Under the pieces are notes generated by a model, which saw only the letters and a list, made by a program, of their open reading frames with translations, made no database searches and was not told where the DNA came from. A stretch of DNA of 36,667 bases, from positions 1 through 36,667 of the IMG/VR virus record IMGVR_UViG_3300036823_000020. One strand, 5' to 3'. This DNA is from a virus. The position numbers and the translations under genes are program-made. Below, piece after piece: positions 5,532-36,667 of the stretch; within the stretch, counting starts at the first letter, position 1; the number at the start of each line of letters is the position of its first letter.

Positions 5532-6831
<1,300 letters not shown>

Positions 6832-16815: not shown

Positions 16816-16830
16816 CCTTGGCGTGAGTTG

Positions 16831-16904
16831 AGGCGGGAGCTGGATTCGAACCAGCGCGCTACTGCTTATGAGGCAGTTGAGATAGACCGCTTCTCTATCC
16901 CGCC
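16831..16904 (-). tRNA. tRNA-Met (anticodon CAT)
   Basis: A complete cloverleaf reads on the minus strand: 7-bp acceptor GGCGGGA/TCCCGCC with no mismatch, D stem GAGA/TCTC, anticodon stem ACTGC/GCAGT with loop CTCATAA, 5-base variable loop and T arm GCTGG-TTCGAAT-CCAGC. The 1-72 pair is G-C, so this is elongator-like, not initiator. CAT could also belong to a lysidine-modified Ile tRNA. CCA is not encoded and the base after the acceptor is T, an unusual discriminator. It lies between a small gene and terL. Confidence 0.9.
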
Positions 16905-16925
16905 ATTAACAATTTCTATGATTCG

Positions 16926-17186
16926 TCACTTACCGGCTGGACGTTTGCTCAAGCCGGCATCGACGATCAGCTTGGCGACGTCGTAGTAATGCAGGCAGTC
17001 GCACAGGCACGCGCCGACAACAGCGCCGCCGAGCGTAGGAGCAATGCTGCCGTTGCAGTGGTCGCTTCCGGGTATCGCGTCGTACAAAATGCCGATCGCG
17101 TTGATATTGACCGGCCCGGAACCGTATCCGGCGAGCGAGATGATCTTGTCGCCGTTCTTTGCTTCACGTCCGTTTCTGTAGTGCAC
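16926..17186 (-). CDS. Small phage protein between the two tRNAs (86 aa)
   Basis: The frame is open up to 17267, but that extension would translate the tRNA-Ala gene. The GTG at 17186, preceded by GGAG at a spacing of 8, is the sensible start. The protein begins VHYRNGREAKNGDKIISL, a pattern of many short phage proteins of unknown role, has a possible small beta-barrel core (INAIGILYDAIPG) and a cysteine cluster (GACLCDCLHYYD) that might bind metal. It lies between terS and terL. Confidence 0.65.
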   Translation of the reverse strand: MHYRNGREAKNGDKIISLAGYGSGPVNINAIGILYDAIPGSDHCNGSIAPTLGGAVVGACLCDCLHYYDVAKLIVDAGLSKRPAGK

Positions 17187-17206
17187 GCTATGCTCCAAAA
17201 TTAAAT

Positions 17207-17282
17207 TGGTGGACAAGACAGGAATCGAACCCGCGACCCGCTGCTTGCAAAGCAGCCGCTCTCCCAACTGAGCTACTCGCCC
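17207..17282 (-). tRNA. tRNA-Ala (anticodon TGC)
   Basis: A full cloverleaf with encoded CCA: acceptor GGGCGAG/CTTGTCC (two G-T pairs), D arm GCTC/GAGC, anticodon stem GCTGC/GCAGC with loop TTTGCAA (TGC), T arm GCGGG-TTCGATT-CCTGT, discriminator A then CCA. The 5' end at 17282 abuts the terS stop codon at 17283 with no gap, so cleavage by RNase P would cut the message right at the end of terS. Confidence 0.93.
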
Positions 17283-26488: not shown

Positions 26489-26920
26489 ATGAAAACGAAC
26501 GAGATCACCAACACCGAAGACACCATCGATAGCCGCGACGTGATCGCGCGCATTGAAGAACTGCGCTCGGACCTCGACAGCTTGAACGATGACATCGCCG
26601 ACGCTGAAGGCGCGGACGCGACAGAGGCGGCTCAGGAAGTGCTGAAAGAATGGGAAGAAGAATACGTCGAAGAACTGCGCGCGCTCGAAGCGCTCGCCAG
26701 CGAAGCCGAAGGATATGCGGCGGATTGGAGCTACGGCGAGACGCTGATTCGTGACAGCTACTTCAAGGAATACGCACAAGACCTCGCCGACGATATCGGC
26801 GCCGTCGACCGCGACGCGAAATGGCCAAACACCTGTATCGATTGGGACCAAGCAGCGCGTGAGCTTCTTCAGGATTACACGTCCGTCGATTTCGACGGCG
26901 TCACGTATTGGGTGCGCTGA
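26489..26920 (+). CDS. Strongly acidic early protein, ArdA-like C-terminal pattern (143 aa)
   Basis: First gene of the rightward early operon. About 40 Asp/Glu against 12 Lys/Arg gives a very negative charge. A long charged helix (16-75) is followed by a domain (WSYGETLIRDSYFKEYAQDLADDIGAV, then IDWDQAARELLQDYTSVDFDGVTYW) that recalls the C-terminal part of ArdA-type antirestriction proteins and is common in small phage proteins. A DNA-mimic role against restriction would fit charge and early expression, but is inference. Its stop overlaps the next start as TGATG. Confidence 0.62.
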   Translation: MKTNEITNTEDTIDSRDVIARIEELRSDLDSLNDDIADAEGADATEAAQEVLKEWEEEYVEELRALEALASEAEGYAADWSYGETLIRDSYFKEYAQDLADDIGAVDRDAKWPNTCIDWDQAARELLQDYTSVDFDGVTYWVR

Positions 26921-27147
26921 TGAACCTCGCTGCTGCTTACGAACTCCGCCAGATCGACGCCGCGCATGAATCGATGGAACTCGCTCGCGAGAAGCTTTCG
27001 ATGCTCAGCAACGACCAGCACACCAGCCTCGCGCAGACGCAGCGTATTGACCGCGTCGCACGCAAGCTAACGAAGGCAATCACCGACCTGAAGACCGCGC
27101 AGCGCTCAGCGCGTGCGCGCTTCACCGCTCAGGAGGCTGCAGCATGA
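26920..27147 (+). CDS. Small helical early protein (75 aa)
   Basis: The ATG at 26920 overlaps the previous stop. The protein is nearly all helix (LRQIDAAHESMELAREKLSML, then IDRVARKLTKAITDLKTAQRSARARF) with a basic second half. No family is recognised. Its stop overlaps the next start (ATGA), showing tight coupling. Confidence 0.55.
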   Translation: MNLAAAYELRQIDAAHESMELAREKLSMLSNDQHTSLAQTQRIDRVARKLTKAITDLKTAQRSARARFTAQEAAA

Positions 27148-27236
27148 AATTTTCACCAGTGGAAAAACTGATCGGATTCGCCGCGCTTCTAATCATGGCC
27201 TGGTCGATAGGTTCGGTCGTTGGAGCGTGCCCATGA
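27144..27236 (+). CDS. Mini membrane protein (30 aa)
   Basis: ATG at 27144 (ATGA overlap) to TGA at 27236, which in turn overlaps the next ATG. The 30-residue product has a charged start (MKFSPVEK) and one membrane helix (LIGFAALLIMAWSIGSVVG). Double coupling in a row of overlapping genes supports its reality; function unknown. Confidence 0.5.
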   Translation: MKFSPVEKLIGFAALLIMAWSIGSVVGACP

Positions 27237-28257: not shown

Positions 28258-28386
28258 CTACCTGTAGCCAGAAGTCCCCGATCCCAGCCACGAAGGCTCG
28301 AAGACGGCAAACAGAATCACGCCAGCGATGCACGCCATGAACAACAGCCCGCCAATGTTTTCCGGATCACGCAGCCATGCTTTCAT
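28258..28386 (-). CDS. Mini membrane protein at the end of the replication operon (42 aa)
   Basis: The ATG at 28386 has GGAG 7 bases upstream and overlaps the end of rusA by 20 bases. The protein MKAWLRDPENIGG is followed by a membrane helix (LLFMACIAGVILFAVFEPSW) and a short tail. It lies at the convergent junction with the plus-strand early operon. Function unknown. Confidence 0.5.
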   Translation of the reverse strand: MKAWLRDPENIGGLLFMACIAGVILFAVFEPSWLGSGTSGYR

Positions 28387-28828
28387 CGTCATTCTCCGCT
28401 GGACGTGAAAATCCTACCACCTTCCGCACCGCCGGCAAAATCAATCCCTGCCATCCCTCGCCAAGCTCACCGATCGACACGATGACTCGTGCCCGCTTCG
28501 ACTTCATGCCGCGCTCGACCGTCAACAGGTCTATCTGACCGTCGTTTGCATATACGCCAGGCCATCCCAATTTCTCGTCGGCTTCCATTGCGTCCTGCAA
28601 TCCCTTCAGGACGTTGTCAAGGTCCGCGCGTCGCGCGTCGGCACGCTCAACCAAAACGTGCATCCATAATCGCATGTCAGCCGCGTACGGCATCACCTGC
28701 TGCTCGATCACGGCTAGCCTGACCGCTTCCTTGTACGCGCGGCCATCAGCGCTGATCATCACCATACGACCTACGTGCCGGTAGTATCGATTCAGACTCG
28801 GCGGCAGGTCTAGCGTCAGGCTTTGCAC
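28367..28828 (-). CDS. rusA: RusA-family Holliday junction resolvase
   Basis: The 153-aa protein begins with a strand and PPSLNRYYR, the usual RusA opening. The catalytic block ADLDNVLKGLQDAME lies at 68-82, with D69 and D71 as metal ligands and the third acid expected in VYANDGQID (D96 or D100). K-rich segments KSKRARVIVSI follow. RusA cuts four-way junctions as a homodimer and resolves branched DNA before packaging. It has an extra C-terminal ~30 residues. The start overlaps the upstream gene. Confidence 0.87.
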   Translation of the reverse strand: MQSLTLDLPPSLNRYYRHVGRMVMISADGRAYKEAVRLAVIEQQVMPYAADMRLWMHVLVERADARRADLDNVLKGLQDAMEADEKLGWPGVYANDGQIDLLTVERGMKSKRARVIVSIGELGEGWQGLILPAVRKVVGFSRPAENDDESMAA

Positions 28829-29067: not shown

Positions 29068-29224
29068 CTTCCGTCTCCGTGAACCTGCATTCAGTTTCGA
29101 TCTCACCATCCCACAGCAAGTCATCGTTCTCCGCCTCGATCTCCGTCAGCGCAGGATCCAGCCTGCCGACAGCCACGCCGCTGGTCATGCCGTAGTGAAA
29201 GTTCACCTCGACAGCGGTGATCAT
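29057..29224 (-). CDS. Small acidic phage protein (55 aa)
   Basis: The ATG at 29224 overlaps the upstream stop as ATGA; the longer open frame to 29332 is inside that gene. The protein (MITAVEVNFHYGMTSGVAVG, then an acidic tail with many Glu and Asp) is not recognised. Spacing and overlaps on both sides support it. Confidence 0.48.
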   Translation of the reverse strand: MITAVEVNFHYGMTSGVAVGRLDPALTEIEAENDDLLWDGEIETECRFTETEDAA

Positions 29225-29478
29225 GTCTCGACCCTGATGTCGAACTCTCCACGCAGCATCGAAACGCACACCTCGTCGTCGCGGCAAAGACCAGTAACCC
29301 GCTTCGACATGAGCTCGACACCATCCTTCCAAAAGCTCACCTTCACATCCGGGCCGAGATTCTTGACCTTGATCGAATCGAAGGCGACCGAAACCAGATT
29401 CTTCCTGCCTGCACTCATGTCCAAACCGACCACTGCCTGAGCGACAGCGTTATTTGTTAAATCCATCCTGCCGTGCAT
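29221..29478 (-). CDS. Small phage protein, beta-rich (85 aa)
   Basis: AAGGAG precedes two ATGs (29484, 29478); the second has better spacing. Segments NLVSVAFDSIKVKNLGPDVKVSFWKDGVELMSKRVTG and EVCVSMLRGEFDIRVE suggest a small beta domain. First gene after the AT-rich iteron-like region, so probably driven by the promoter there. Not recognised. Confidence 0.5.
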   Translation of the reverse strand: MHGRMDLTNNAVAQAVVGLDMSAGRKNLVSVAFDSIKVKNLGPDVKVSFWKDGVELMSKRVTGLCRDDEVCVSMLRGEFDIRVET

Positions 29479-29493
29479 TTGCATTCTCCTTCA

Positions 29494-29654
29494 TTAGTCA
29501 GTAGTCATTCTTTAGTCATGCCCAAAGACTTACCATAAGATTATGTTTTTATTATTATTTAATATATATATTAGTCAATAGATAGTAGTAGTAAGAGAAG
29601 ATATAAAAGCAGTATTCGTACAGAGAGAGGGGACCACCATGACTATTTGACTAA
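29494..29654. repeat. Iteron-like TAGTCA repeats in an AT-rich segment
   Basis: TAGTCA occurs four times forward (29495, 29502, 29513, 29572) and twice inverted as TGACTA (29640, 29648); four of the six have an extra T giving TTAGTCA. Between them lies the most AT-rich stretch of the window (29540-29572). This arrangement is that of replication origins or of a multi-site operator. No gene lies in 29485-29698. Confidence 0.6.
29550..29578 (-). promoter_or_regulatory. Possible promoter for the 29478-28258 genes
   Basis: On the minus strand TTGACT (29573-29578) is followed after 16-17 bases by AATAAT/ATAATA. The AT-rich run makes the exact -10 ambiguous. One TAGTCA repeat overlaps the -35, so a repeat-binding protein could regulate it. 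Confidence 0.4.
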
Positions 29655-29698
29655 GATTCCCCTCCAGCCCTACTGCCACAACGCCTGCACGTTGGTCA

Positions 29699-32146
29699 CT
29701 AGTCGTCACCGTCAGTCGCCGATTCAACGGCTACCCACACCGTCGCCTTCTTCCCGCTAGCGCGCGTGACTTCGCGCAACTCGATCCTTCCCATCTTCAC
29801 CAGACGGTCGAGAACCTGCTTTGCCATCGGCTCCGTTAGCCGCCGCAGCGCCCGGCAGTCGCTCACCAGCCTGCTGGGAACCACTCCGCGCTCGCCCTGC
29901 TTGAGAACGTACTGATGAACCCTCTGCACGCTCTCATCGAACTCCGATTCGAACACGCGGTTCTCGACGCCAGCCACCACGATGCGGCCACACCACCGCA
30001 CGTAGCCGACAGCCCAGCGCGCGCATTCCTCGTCAATGACCGGCCGCACTGGGTGCTTCGCCACTGCTGCGATCAACGCCAGCTTGTGGGCGTTCTCGTA
30101 CCATCTGACGAGGGCATCATCCAGGCCACGGCCCTGCGCGTGCATCTTGTCCCGCTGCTCGTCGACTTCGACCTGGAAGCTCTCCAGCACCTGCTGCGAC
30201 AGCGTGTCCTCGTATTCGACCTGAACCGGGTTGCTCGGCGTCGCACCGAGACTCTGCGCGCCGTCCACCGCATACCCAGGATTGCGCACGCTGTCAGACC
30301 ACAGCTTCAGCCCGTTAGGCATGTCAGCCAGCGACGCGCGGTTCACGTTCGCCTTCGGCTTCGCGTCAGGGGCTTGAGCCACCATCAGCCGATTGATGAA
30401 GCCGCTCGCGACGTCGGCACCCTTCACGTTCGACCAGAACTTGTCGGGCGTCGTGAAGCCGATCACCGTCAGGTGCGGATAGGCCAGCGCCTCGCTGCGC
30501 TTCTCCTTGCGATTCGCGTAGTCCGTTCCCTTGTACAGCGGGTTGCTGCTCGCCGAATACAGACTCATCATTTGATCCGTGATCTCGCGGATATGCGCCT
30601 GAGCATTCACGCCCAGCGCCGCGCGCAAGAGGCCATCAACCTCGTCGAGCACATAGATCGCCGCCGACCCCGTCGCGCCGTCGCTCAGCATCGAGACAAT
30701 CGCCTGGCCGCTCGCAATCTTCGACCCTCCGAGCACGCGCTCCTGTCCGCAGTGAGCCAGCAAGCGCATCAAACACTCCTGCGGATGCGCCTTGCCAAAC
30801 CCTGAGCGAGCAATGCCTATCAGGTTCAGGTTCGAGCGCGAGCCCGTCGGCCCAACGTAAATCTGCCGCGCCATCATCGAGCAGAACGCGATCGTCGCGT
30901 GCAAGCTCATCTCCGGCAGCGGCTGCTGCGCCGTCGCCAGCATCCAGCGGAATATGTCGGCCATGATTCCCGGCGGCTTCAACAGTTCGTTCGGAATGCC
31001 TTCGTCGACGATCACCGATTCCTTCGCGATGGGCCGCAACACCGTCACGCCGTCGTCGACCACCACTTTCACCGGCACGCTGGTGCCCGCCATCGACGCC
31101 GCGTCCCGCGCGCGCTTCTCCGCTGCCAGCTCCGCCTTGACTTCGTCGATCGTCTTCGCAAAGTCGCCGCCGACTTCAACCTTCTCCGGCACGACGATGA
31201 TCCCCAACTTCTCGCCGAGATACTCCATTGCCGTGTGCACGCCGCAGCCACGAATTGCCATTACCAGATCGATCGGCGTGTAGCCGCGATTCTCCGCGAA
31301 GTCGCGAATGCCATGTCGCGTGATGCCGACCTTGTCTGAATCCGTCACGCCGCGCCAGAACGGAACCACGCGGTGCGTGTCGCCCCACTTCACATACTTG
31401 CGATAGTTCTCCGGCACGATGTCGTACAGCCACGCCGCGACGTCAGCCAGCGCCGCATCGTTCAATCGCCTGCCGAGTTCGTCGCTCTCGTTAACAACAT
31501 GCGCTGACCGCTGCAGGTCGTCGGCTTGCTTGCGCTTGTCGTCGGCACTCTGAAATGGCTCGATCGCGCGCTGACACCGCTCGACGATGTCGGCCGGACA
31601 CGGCGGCAGCTCGTCCAGGTTGTACGCCTTGAATGGTGTCTGCCACTCGTACGCCTGGTGCGTGTCGGGATGAATCGTCGGCGGCATCACCACCTGCCGA
31701 CCTGTGTGCAACAGATCCAGCACGCGCATTCCGTCCACATTCCATTTCGACTGCTTCAGTCCGAAACCTTCCGGCGCCAGCACGAACGCGCAGTAGCCGC
31801 GCTTGCCCCTGCGACGCGCAATCAGACAGCCACCAAGTTCGCGCTCGAGCGCGTCGACAATGTCCTTCCTATCCGTGTCAATGTCGATGCCAAGCAATCC
31901 GCTGTTGCCGCCCATCGGCACACAGATGCCGGCATCCGGCCAGTCGTCAGCCCAGATGTCGAGCTGCACGTCGTTCGGCATCTTGTGCGCGTATTCCTGC
32001 CAGTCGCGCATGTTGTTCCAGCCGTGCTGCCCGTCGTAGGTGCCAGGCACCTTCGTCCCTGGCCCGACCGGCAAACAAGGAATCCCGGCTTCGACGTACC
32101 GCGAGTACTCCGCGCCGAATGGACTCGTCGCTACAGCTTGTGTCAT
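29699..32146 (-). CDS. Primase-polymerase fused to a DUF3987-like ATPase/helicase
   Basis: From the ATG at 32146 (GGGGAG ribosome site) the protein is 815 aa. Residues ~10-190 match the bifunctional primase/polymerase N-terminal fold: an opening helix with GIPCLPV, the metal-binding IDIDTD (D88, D90) and GRQVVMPPTIHP at 149-160. Residues ~390-640 resemble the DUF3987-type P-loop region: IGIARSGFGKAHPQE (P-loop-like SGFGKA, 448-453, Ala where Ser/Thr is usual) and IYVLDEVDG (497-505, Walker B). The C-terminus has a likely winged helix (PSRLVSDCRALRRLTEPMAKQVLDRLVKMGRIEL). It should prime and perhaps unwind phage DNA. Confidence 0.83.
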   Translation of the reverse strand: MTQAVATSPFGAEYSRYVEAGIPCLPVGPGTKVPGTYDGQHGWNNMRDWQEYAHKMPNDVQLDIWADDWPDAGICVPMGGNSGLLGIDIDTDRKDIVDALERELGGCLIARRRGKRGYCAFVLAPEGFGLKQSKWNVDGMRVLDLLHTGRQVVMPPTIHPDTHQAYEWQTPFKAYNLDELPPCPADIVERCQRAIEPFQSADDKRKQADDLQRSAHVVNESDELGRRLNDAALADVAAWLYDIVPENYRKYVKWGDTHRVVPFWRGVTDSDKVGITRHGIRDFAENRGYTPIDLVMAIRGCGVHTAMEYLGEKLGIIVVPEKVEVGGDFAKTIDEVKAELAAEKRARDAASMAGTSVPVKVVVDDGVTVLRPIAKESVIVDEGIPNELLKPPGIMADIFRWMLATAQQPLPEMSLHATIAFCSMMARQIYVGPTGSRSNLNLIGIARSGFGKAHPQECLMRLLAHCGQERVLGGSKIASGQAIVSMLSDGATGSAAIYVLDEVDGLLRAALGVNAQAHIREITDQMMSLYSASSNPLYKGTDYANRKEKRSEALAYPHLTVIGFTTPDKFWSNVKGADVASGFINRLMVAQAPDAKPKANVNRASLADMPNGLKLWSDSVRNPGYAVDGAQSLGATPSNPVQVEYEDTLSQQVLESFQVEVDEQRDKMHAQGRGLDDALVRWYENAHKLALIAAVAKHPVRPVIDEECARWAVGYVRWCGRIVVAGVENRVFESEFDESVQRVHQYVLKQGERGVVPSRLVSDCRALRRLTEPMAKQVLDRLVKMGRIELREVTRASGKKATVWVAVESATDGDD

Positions 32147-34166: not shown

Positions 34167-34357
34167 ACATCCTCCCTTCGCCGATCCTGTTTCTCGCACA
34201 CAAAGAATCCATCGTCGCCAAAGCACGGCGGCATAAAACAACCACCAGTGCGTTCTCCGCAATTCGGACACGGTGACGACTTAGAGCGAATAACGTCCCT
34301 CAACTTGCTAAGGTAGTTAGCGCTACGCGCCGCCTTCTCCAGACGATGACTCGCCAT
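34163..34357 (-). CDS. Small zinc-ribbon-like protein (64 aa)
   Basis: The ATG at 34357 lies inside the end of the HTH gene, with GGAG upstream. The protein has CPNCGERTGGC, then PPCFGDDGFFVC, four or five Cys able to hold one zinc. The N-terminus is basic and helical (SHRLEKAARSANYLSKLRDVIRSK). Possibly a nucleic-acid-binding early protein. It ends with an ATGA overlap. Confidence 0.55.
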   Translation of the reverse strand: MASHRLEKAARSANYLSKLRDVIRSKSSPCPNCGERTGGCFMPPCFGDDGFFVCEKQDRRREDV

Positions 34358-34805
34358 TGCAATGCTCCTTAATCCACTTGTATACAGTTACAGTCGATAG
34401 CCCGGCTTCGTCAGCAACCTTCGTGATCTTGCGGCCAGGAACGGAAAGCAGAGTGCGTAGCTGTTGATCGCGAAGCATCCCTGGCGGCAGTCGACGCTTC
34501 GCGCGCTCAGTGTCAGCGATCTTCTTTTTGATCCTGGTGTACTTATCCGTGACGCCGAAGATGCGCGCGCCGGTGTCGAACAAAGAACCCTGCGGACGCT
34601 GCTGTCGGTAGGCGCCCCACTGCCGCTTCTGCGCGACACAGTTATTGCGCCGGCATTCGCGCGCGAATATCTGCGCGACCCTGCCTTTAGAAATTCCGAA
34701 CTCTGCCGCTATAGATTCATACGTCCGGCCGTCACGCAGCACGGCGACAACAAGGCGCGCGTCCCGCTCCATCCCATCGAATCGTTTCTGTAAAAGAGAA
34801 TTCAT
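34323..34805 (-). CDS. Protein with two helix-turn-helix segments (160 aa)
   Basis: The ATG at 34805 is favoured; the upstream extension to 34880 would cover the divergent control region. An N-terminal HTH is visible at about 25-50 (RTYESIAAEFGISKGRVAQIFARE), and a second at about 130-152 (KITKVADEAGLSTVTVYKWIKE). The middle is basic (ECRRNNCVAQKRQWGAYRQQR). It is the first gene of the leftward replication operon and faces the XRE repressor, the position of a Cro-like or replication-initiator/early regulator. No clear ribosome site is seen. Which of these roles applies is open. Confidence 0.6.
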   Translation of the reverse strand: MNSLLQKRFDGMERDARLVVAVLRDGRTYESIAAEFGISKGRVAQIFARECRRNNCVAQKRQWGAYRQQRPQGSLFDTGARIFGVTDKYTRIKKKIADTERAKRRLPPGMLRDQQLRTLLSVPGRKITKVADEAGLSTVTVYKWIKEHCNGESSSGEGGA

Positions 34806-34834
34806 TTGACGTACACGGTAACGAATGTTAAGTT
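34806..34834 (+). promoter_or_regulatory. Possible rightward promoter of the repressor
   Basis: TTGACG (34806-34811), 17-bp spacer, then TG-T-TAAGTT (-10 34829-34834, extended but weak). It would drive the 55-codon frame and the repressor. A leftward promoter TTGTTA-N18-TAACAT (34854 to 34825, minus) overlaps it. Confidence 0.35.
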
Positions 34835-34874
34835 GCGCGACCTTCCGGTAACAAAAAGCGAAGGGATGGCTAAC

Positions 34875-35042
34875 ATGCATGACGTTGCGCGAGAGGAAAG
34901 TTTACCGAAATTCGGAAACGGGGGCAACCATCACATGAATTCCGGCATTACCGAAAAACAGGAACTTGCTGACAAATCGGATTCGATAGGCGACGATACG
35001 CGTGCCAAGGGGAACTTGACGCGATGCCTAAAGAAGACTTGA
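34875..35042 (+). CDS. Possible small gene before the repressor (55 aa)
   Basis: The ATG at 34875 has AAGGGA 8 bases upstream; the frame ends within the repressor gene. The product (MHDVAREESLPKFGNGG...) is polar with no motif. It contains dyad A (34903-34917), so the segment may be a control leader with only chance coding ability. Confidence 0.3.
   Translation: MHDVAREESLPKFGNGGNHHMNSGITEKQELADKSDSIGDDTRAKGNLTRCLKKT
34903..34917. promoter_or_regulatory. Operator-like dyad A (TACCG-AAATT-CGGAA)
   Basis: CCG-N5-CGG with AT-rich centre, as in the sites at 26356-26448. It lies between the divergent HTH and XRE genes. A half-site (ATTACCG) follows at 34948. Confidence 0.52.
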
Positions 35043-35422
35043 GCAAACTTAACGAGAAGCAACTGAGACAGCTATCGGGTAGCAGGATGCGGCTTGCCCG
35101 CCAGCGGAAGAATATGTTCATGCGCGAGGTTCGTGAACAGATGGCGCGCCGCGGCATCGTCTGGGCTTTCGAGTCCAGGGTCGCCGGCTACGAGAACGGC
35201 GACAACGCAATGACGGCTTACACAGCGCGGATGTTGGGCGAGATACTCGACGTCTCACCAGCGTGGTTGCTATGCGTTGAAGACGCCCTGCCGTTCGATG
35301 CCGACACCATCGATACCGTGCGTCGATTCAACGAGGCACCACCTGACGTAAGAGAGATGATTTCAAAGATGCTGTCGATGCGATCGGCGTCTCTCACTCC
35401 AAGTCCAAAGGGCCGGCAATAG
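35024..35422 (+). CDS. XRE-family (CI/Cro-type) transcriptional regulator
   Basis: The 132-aa protein has an HTH of the XRE type at about 20-80: GSRMRLARQRKNMFMREVREQM, then VWAFESRVAGYENGDNAMTAYTARMLGEILDVSPAWLL, with the usual ESR-x-x-x-YENG recognition stretch. After it there is only a ~45-residue tail (FNEAPPDVREMISKML), with no S24 self-cleaving domain. Thus it would not be inactivated by RecA in the lambda way. AAGGGGAA precedes the ATG. It is the best candidate binder of the TACCG-N5-CGGTA sites. Confidence 0.8.
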   Translation: MPKEDLSKLNEKQLRQLSGSRMRLARQRKNMFMREVREQMARRGIVWAFESRVAGYENGDNAMTAYTARMLGEILDVSPAWLLCVEDALPFDADTIDTVRRFNEAPPDVREMISKMLSMRSASLTPSPKGRQ

Positions 35423-36015: not shown

Positions 36016-36667
36016 ATGAAGAAGCCGCAACCGAAAAATAAAAACACGAAGGCCACCGTCAAGAAGCGCGTAAAGAAAGTCTCTACTTCGCTCGTCTTGC
36101 GTTGCTGTGACGCCAACATGCGCAGCTACGACGGCTTTCAGTGGCCGGATAAGGTCGGCGCCACTGTCAAAGCTAAAGACTGGAGCAGCGCCCCGTATTT
36201 CGGCAACGGACTTCATGGATGGCTGCATGGAGCCGGTGATCATTCGTCGAGCAGCTACGTCGATCGCGACAACGCGAAGTGGCTTGTTGTCGAAGTTGCT
36301 TCCGCGGGTATCGTGATGCTCGGCGGCAAATGCAAGTTTGAGTCGTGCGTCATTCGCCACATCGGCGACAAGAAATCAGCGACCGACTTCCTGCTCACCC
36401 ATGACCAACTCGCCAGAGAAGTCGCGGTGATAGGCGCCACTCGTGCCGTTGCCGATCTTGAATCGGCGCTCGTCGGCGCCCGCGGCACTGCAACGGCTGG
36501 CTACGGCGGCACTGCAACGGCTGGCGCCCGCGGCACTGCAACGGCTGGCTACGGCGGCACTGCAACGGCTGGCGACAGCGGCACTGCAACGGCTGGCGAC
36601 AGCGGCACTGCAACGGCTGGCGCCAGCGGCACTGCAACGGCTGGCTCCGGCGGCACTGCAACGGCTG
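36016..36667 (+). CDS. DUF7666-like protein with GTATAG repeats (cut by window edge)
   Basis: ATG at 36016 opens a frame running off the right edge after 217 codons. After a Lys-rich start (about 1-25) comes a domain (LVLRCCDANMRSYDGFQWP, WLVVEVASAGIVMLGGKCKFESCVIRHIGD) of the type found in phage proteins annotated DUF7666, about 25-150. From residue 157 the chain is a run of 8-residue units, GTATAG plus two variable residues (YG, AR, DS, AS, SG), like pentapeptide/hexapeptide-type beta solenoids. Promoter is probably shared with the 35538 gene, 26 bp upstream. Confidence 0.65.
   Translation, partial: MKKPQPKNKNTKATVKKRVKKVSTSLVLRCCDANMRSYDGFQWPDKVGATVKAKDWSSAPYFGNGLHGWLHGAGDHSSSSYVDRDNAKWLVVEVASAGIVMLGGKCKFESCVIRHIGDKKSATDFLLTHDQLAREVAVIGATRAVADLESALVGARGTATAGYGGTATAGARGTATAGYGGTATAGDSGTATAGDSGTATAGASGTATAGSGGTATA
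36484..36667 (+). repeat. 24-bp tandem repeat, at least 7.7 copies
   Basis: The 18-bp core GGCACTGCAACGGCTGGC repeats every 24 bp from 36484 (36508, 36532, 36556, 36580, 36604, 36628, 36652). The core is invariant in all seven full copies; only the 6-bp spacer changes. The array continues past the window end. Confidence 0.95.

Follow-up and report, generated by a model that had tools for sequence, protein, structure and literature searches.

Does the 214-bp gap at 29485-29698, bounded by the stop codon of a gene for 822 aa and by an 87-aa ORF, both on the minus strand, hold the origin of replication of this phage, or do its repeated words serve another purpose? The window, by which we mean the whole stretch of DNA that was analysed, is a virus record of 36,667 bp from IMG/VR, with linear as its class. 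It is likely not complete, because the assembly probably broke in a 24-bp tandem array of eight copies at the contig end (36475-36667), inside an ORF (phrog_18079). Genes for tRNA-Met (cat) and tRNA-Ala (tgc) lie between the terminase genes (16830-17282). The first-pass annotation had placed a candidate iteron origin between the primase and rusA genes. The right-hand neighbor is indeed the primase, but on the left the gap adjoins the 87-aa ORF, for which searches of Pfam and PHROG gave no match, and rusA comes behind two further small ORFs (Table 1). We consider it probable that the gap is the iteron-type origin of the phage, recognized by the adjacent primase-helicase through its C-terminal winged helix.

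Table 1. Features in and around the gap at 29485-29698, in window positions
Feature	Position	Strand	Basis
RusA-like Holliday junction resolvase	28367-28828	-	PF05866, phrog_34
87-aa ORF, leading gene of a short operon on the left side of the gap (followed by 91 aa, 102 aa and RusA)	29221-29484	-	
Left iteron group, three copies: TTAGTCA 29494-29500, TAGTCA 29502-29507, TTAGTCA 29512-29518	29494-29518	+	exact matches
AT-rich core, candidate DNA-unwinding element	29535-29594	.	13% GC; same place after the primase stop in many homologues
Sigma-70-like promoter match TTGACT-16 bp-AATAAT, towards the 87-aa ORF	29551-29578	-	10/12 consensus positions; consensus match only
TTAGTCA within the AT-rich core, over the -35 box of the minus-strand promoter-like site	29571-29577	+	exact match
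Right iteron pair: TAGTCA 29640-29645, TTAGTCA 29648-29654	29640-29654	-	exact matches
Candidate initiator, 822 aa: Prim-Pol (PF09250), DUF3987 AAA+ domain and C-terminal winged helix	29699-32167	-	family and fold matches
Winged helix predicted in the primase (residues 742-813), suggested to read the iterons	29729-29944	-	AlphaFold2, fold comparison

Repeated words around an AT-rich core

Six TAGTCA hexamers, four direct and two inverted, had been reported within about 160 bp, and exact matching finds them in 159 bp (29495-29653): three on the plus strand at 29495, 29502 and 29513, a fourth plus-strand copy in the core at 29572, and a minus-strand pair at 29640 and 29648. Such a cluster is above chance, as had also been claimed. 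Indeed, 2000 dinucleotide shuffles of the gap contained 0.23 TAGTCA on average and none of them held six copies of any 6-mer, nor did any of 60 shuffles of the whole window place six copies of any 6-mer inside 165 bp. The hexamer occurs 12 times in the 36,667-bp window, where the mean of whole-window shuffles is 5.9, and the six copies outside the cluster are dispersed. Denser 6-mer clusters exist in the real window and, among the matches listed, belong to a GCC-rich run (5778-5780) and to the terminal tandem array (36482-36496). The 60-mer with the lowest GC content of the window begins at 29535, with 13% GC versus 33% for the next lowest elsewhere. The words had been described as flanking this most AT-rich part of the window; they surround it rather than purely flank it, because the copy at 29572 falls inside the core.

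An iteron origin is expected to combine a short word repeated several times within a limited non-coding stretch, an adjacent AT-rich unwinding element and an adjoining initiator gene with a DNA-binding domain. The gap holds the first, the 13% GC 60-mer corresponds to the second, and the Prim-Pol/DUF3987 gene that ends at 29699, with its predicted winged helix, corresponds to the third. GC skew, which had been proposed as a check, does not change direction at 29.5 kb, where both sides have a value of about -0.2, and its cumulative minimum lies near 34.5-36.5 kb, the nearby genes being all on one strand and coding strand being a confounder of skew.

The words might instead form a multi-site operator, at which the double-HTH protein (34323-34880) or the CI-like protein (35024-35422) would bind TAGTCA and control the leftward promoter of the genes from the 87-aa ORF to rusA, the AT-rich run being that promoter with an UP-like element. 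The minus-strand sigma-70-like match does overlap the core TAGTCA with its -35 box, and words are found on both sides of this promoter as well as over it, an arrangement possible for operators. Yet we regard the operator as an unlikely main explanation. All four copies of the 7-mer TTAGTCA in the window fall in the gap, and 13% GC over 60 bp is far more extreme than in any other gap of the window. Outside the gap, TTAGTCA with one mismatch is densest in the divergent early promoter region, where three copies fall in 214 bp starting at 34867; this would suit a shared regulator, but that region has a different repeat of its own, TTACCGAAA. Three TTACCGAAA-like repeats lie there (34843-34965), beside the CI-like gene, and are probable operators of the lysis-lysogeny switch. 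Still, since one TAGTCA site overlaps the -35 box, a second, regulatory role is allowed, and part of the AT-richness could serve transcription because of the promoter-like match in the gap.

A primase-helicase with a predicted winged helix

The 822-aa protein matches the Prim-Pol family (PF09250, E 5.6e-19), DUF3987 (PF13148, E 1.1e-6) and phrog_3022, DNA primase. In an AlphaFold2 model built from 32 sequences (mean pLDDT 81.9), its C-terminus is predicted to be a winged helix, with three helices and a two-stranded wing at residues 742-813. In Foldseek, the protein's N-terminal part resembles the Prim-Pol of pRN1 (3m1m, 1rni), and its remainder resembles MCM and Orc1/Cdc6. Predicted alone, the C-terminal domain keeps a pLDDT of 81.2 and aligns with many winged helices, with VIA Z up to 9.8 (87 residues, rmsd 3.0); in Foldseek it has no match better than E 0.001, and the P4 alpha domain is absent among its listed fold matches. 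The winged helices matched by Foldseek and VIA have many functions, so the fold alone is no proof of DNA binding; among them are cullin WHB domains, whose role is not known to be DNA binding.

Several known systems resemble this arrangement in part. Passages of PMC7581432 describe iterons directly downstream of the initiator helicase genes of SaPI Rep and SCCmec Cch2, whose C-terminal domain binds the duplex repeats. The likeness to the window would lie in the short-repeat origin directly downstream of the initiator gene; the difference is that those helicases have no fused Prim-Pol, whereas the window protein unites primase, helicase and DUF3987. In P4 alpha, according to passages of PMC4234260, one protein both primes and acts as helicase, and its C-terminal winged helix binds the ori and crr repeats; a similar combination is proposed here for the window protein. 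The difference is that the primase of P4 alpha is of Toprim type, and that of the window is a Prim-Pol (PF09250). The combination of Prim-Pol and DUF3987 is also seen in proteins of the PrimPol-PV1 supergroup, whose fused DUF3987 is predicted to be a replicative helicase in passages of Kazlauskas et al., 2018 (PMC5862659). The term iteron never occurs in that article, and its passages on PrimPol-PV1 and DUF3987 describe no such origin. In the open-access PMC literature we found no description of iteron origins behind Prim-Pol/DUF3987 phage genes, and the genome paper of Sinorhizobium phage AP-16-3, one of the homologues below, never mentions primase, iteron or replication (PMC10460002).

The closest precedent in protein architecture is also a competing model. 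ORF904 of pRN1 and the proteins of Bordetella phages BIP-1 and BPP-1 share with the window a Prim-Pol fused to a helicase and a winged helix, with the origin 3' of the gene. Berkner et al., 2014 (PMC4234260) showed that pRN1 replication depends on a stem-loop located in the 166 bp that follow the primase gene; the same model is proposed there for BIP-1, with iterons rejected, and BPP-1 is called nearly identical to BIP-1. Were this the case here, the primase would recognize a large stem-loop behind its gene and the TAGTCA words would be incidental. A GC-rich arm pair (29627-29633/29658-29664) does enclose the right word pair, and the location 3' of a Prim-Pol gene agrees. However, the 214-nt minus strand folds no better than its shuffles (z -0.83, with 46 of 200 shuffles as good), the right half of the gap taken as RNA does no better either (z -0.82), and word clusters with different sequences recur behind homologues. 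Unlike pRN1, with its published stem-loop and no iterons, the window has clear words and no significant stem-loop, and we give a pRN1-type origin a very small chance. BPP-1 itself carries four copies of AACGAGGCA, two per orientation, which surround the lowest-GC 60-mer of a 7.5-kb stretch, 467-570 bp behind the primase (L155:2500-3180, about 26,500-27,180 of NC_005357).

The same layout behind homologous primases

Close relatives could not be used for comparison: the window had no DNA match among phages, and no viral contig was found with the primase's own peptides. Distant homologues of the primase are about 27-30% identical to it. An alignment of the window primase with three rhizobial phage primases, at 27-29% identity, retrieved 45 viral loci and 17 genome loci, of which six are near full length; the 11 partial matches (L144-L154) were left out. 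Relatives of TerL and of the capsid exist, but 29 of the 30 records examined for them have no primase match and the thirtieth has one of 77 residues (E 4.9e-4) with a stop inside. The replication module is therefore not common to the structural-gene relatives. A sister origin was also sought by scanning viral contigs for the paired-word pattern, and none came out among the 80 loci listed: four have at least four TAGTCA in 214 bp, and L178 alone among these has a primase match, a weak one. Two unrelated viral contigs with no primase match carry regular TAGTCA arrays, one of eight copies mostly every 14 bp (L181:2091-2180) and one of six copies every 9 bp (L163:3200-3250), which perhaps serve other phages as origins or operators.

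Comparison of the repeat in related phages had been put forward as a check. TAGTCA itself was not found behind any primase homologue examined; what recurs in distant homologues is the architecture, an AT dip with a locally repeated word. In 25/35 clusters at 90% identity, 15/22 at 70% and 8/11 at 50%, the 60-mer poorest in GC of the entire locus is found no more than 220 nt past the primase stop. This test took 44 homologue loci of 7-12 kb and the window, with a threshold of fewer than 0.2% of the locus's 60-mers being lower, and left out L126, L131, L135 and L137, which have no primase stop on the locus, and L097, with 59 bases behind the stop. The upstream side of the primase served as control (51 loci in 26 clusters at 70%, 25 of them testable; L097, L106 and L115 have no downstream value). 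Within 1.6 kb of the primase, a 60-mer of at most 30% GC is found downstream in 15 clusters versus upstream in 2, a repeated 7-mer in 11 versus 1, and the two together in 8 versus 0.

Significant exact 7-mer repeats stand directly behind the gene in 13/35, 9/22 and 5/11 clusters, by a test that misses degenerate words. In the comparison with the upstream side, L139, with seven copies of CGGTTGTC directly behind its primase, was scored as a repeat miss because its lowest-GC 60-mer sits further on. The layout is not universal: a downstream dip of 30% GC or less is missing from at least seven clusters (the L093 group, L095, L101, L116/L143, L129, L130, L132 and L140), and in L096 and L141 the repeats accompany a dip that reaches 35%. 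Some clusters are displaced, to +1342 to +1559 in L112, around +394 in L113 and around +964 in L141. The words themselves belong to lineages. AATTCCA is repeated behind the primases of phage AP-16-3 (L089), Rhizobium phage RHph_TM3_3_14B (L091) and L110; TTGCAA-type words occur in L105, L127, L134, L108, L109, L121, L128 and L122; others are CCTATCG (L103), CAGTTCG (L117), CGAAAAC (L123) and AAGTTCG (L136). In the rhizobial group, the interval from the AT-rich core to the last word pair contains a stretch, near GTCTATCTCTTT...GGAATGAATAATAG, that stays similar in L091, L134, L089 and L112 while the words on either side of it change; this stretch is perhaps a promoter or a host-factor site.

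Ten homologues were tested for the first gene behind the gap. It is AAA/UvrD-like helicase in L103 and NusG-like in one group (L118:3379-4035, L123:7720-8301), has a weak VRR_NUC match below the cut-off in L098, and is without match in six. The gap thus goes with the primase, because the gene on its far side differs, small ORFs and RusA standing there in the window. This counts against the operator, since AT dip and repeats stay in the homologues while the downstream gene changes. The double-HTH protein, which had been suggested as the binder, fared no better: a search without positive control found no homologue of it in any of the 14 homologue records. A plain transcription terminator and AT-rich spacer after the primase, with a chance cluster of words, is hardly credible either. 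The gap does lie directly behind a stop codon, and AT-rich spacers are common behind genes, but word cluster and AT dip exceed shuffles, a scan found no terminator-like site, and the layout recurs in homologues in a comparison with an upstream control.

Candidate origin words and winged helices change together

The kind of word goes with the type of winged helix. Among 47 pairs whose bodies are at least 60% identical, drawn from 32 loci and not independent of each other, a repeated word is shared by 14/15 pairs whose winged helices are at least 75% identical, versus 6/32 pairs below this value. The set excludes six near-duplicates (L094, L107, L118, L119, L120, L138) and any locus in which no 60-mer within 1.7 kb has 36% GC or less. 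In partial correlation over these non-independent pairs, word sharing is associated with the winged helix given the body (0.51) and not with the body given the winged helix (-0.06).

Individual cases illustrate this behavior. L134 and L112 are 95% identical in the body and 64% in the winged helix, and have no repeated word in common. L112 and L091, at 91% in the body and 96% in the winged helix, both have AATTCCA, and L089 and L091 (87% and 88-90%) have an identical word. Conversely, L134 and L091 are 91% identical in the body and 65-67% in the winged helix, and their words are TTGCAA-type versus AATTCCA. Simple linkage fails as an explanation, because L112 keeps AATTCCA though its cluster is 1.3-1.6 kb from the gene. 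There are counter-cases: L110 has AATTCCA like L089, L091 and L112 with a winged helix just 64-67% identical, and L090 and L108, with winged helices 97% identical, have no word in common by the threshold used. In a comparison of eleven sequences, seven columns split the two word classes, 3 of the 83 columns of the C-terminal domain and 4 of the 812 of the body. One of the three C-terminal columns lies inside the winged helix, and the alignment suggests that this residue, at the end of helix 2, tracks the word, being Arg with TTGCAA and Ala or Thr with AATTCCA. To judge from sequence, each lineage's private word is apparently matched to the C-terminal end of its own primase. That word type tracks the primase winged helix also speaks against an operator bound by another regulator.

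The iteron-origin reading is therefore supported, as the layout recurs behind homologous primases, the far-side gene differs and the word follows the winged helix; an origin served by its own primase-helicase appears to us the most economical account of the locus. We propose that, much as described for SaPI Rep and P4 alpha, the primase-helicase made from the adjacent gene would use its C-terminal winged helix to bind the TTAGTCA/TAGTCA words, and that the word groups on either side of the core would load two helicase rings. The AAA+ domain would then melt the core (29535-29594), the Prim-Pol domain would lay the first primers, and host or phage proteins would extend them. Protein bound to the site on the -35 box may also adjust expression of the genes from the 87-aa ORF to rusA, a form of autoregulation. 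The operator would in this way keep a secondary role, being less supported than the origin as the main function of the gap.

We lean, with some reserve, towards a wider reading, in which phage proteins with Prim-Pol, helicase and winged helix make up a large group of replicons run by a single protein, each with a private origin word behind its gene, and in which changes in the word accompany those in the winged helix, whatever happens in the rest of the protein. The group would then amount to a natural set of initiator-origin pairs that are mutually orthogonal, in the way of plasmid incompatibility groups, and the stem-loop model for phages of the BIP-1/BPP-1 type would be replaced by a previously unreported repeat cluster around an AT-rich core behind the primase. 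The case of L112, L134 and L091 makes this directly testable in vitro.

To our knowledge, replication origins are unmarked in nearly all genomes of uncultured phages. If the rule holds, the origin could be read from sequence in any phage with such a protein, by seeking an AT dip and a locally repeated word after the primase gene or as much as about 1.5 kb beyond. Their winged helix would give these proteins a role in reading origins and DUF3987 proteins would gain a role as initiators, and the group would offer many matched protein-DNA pairs from which to learn how winged helices choose their sites.
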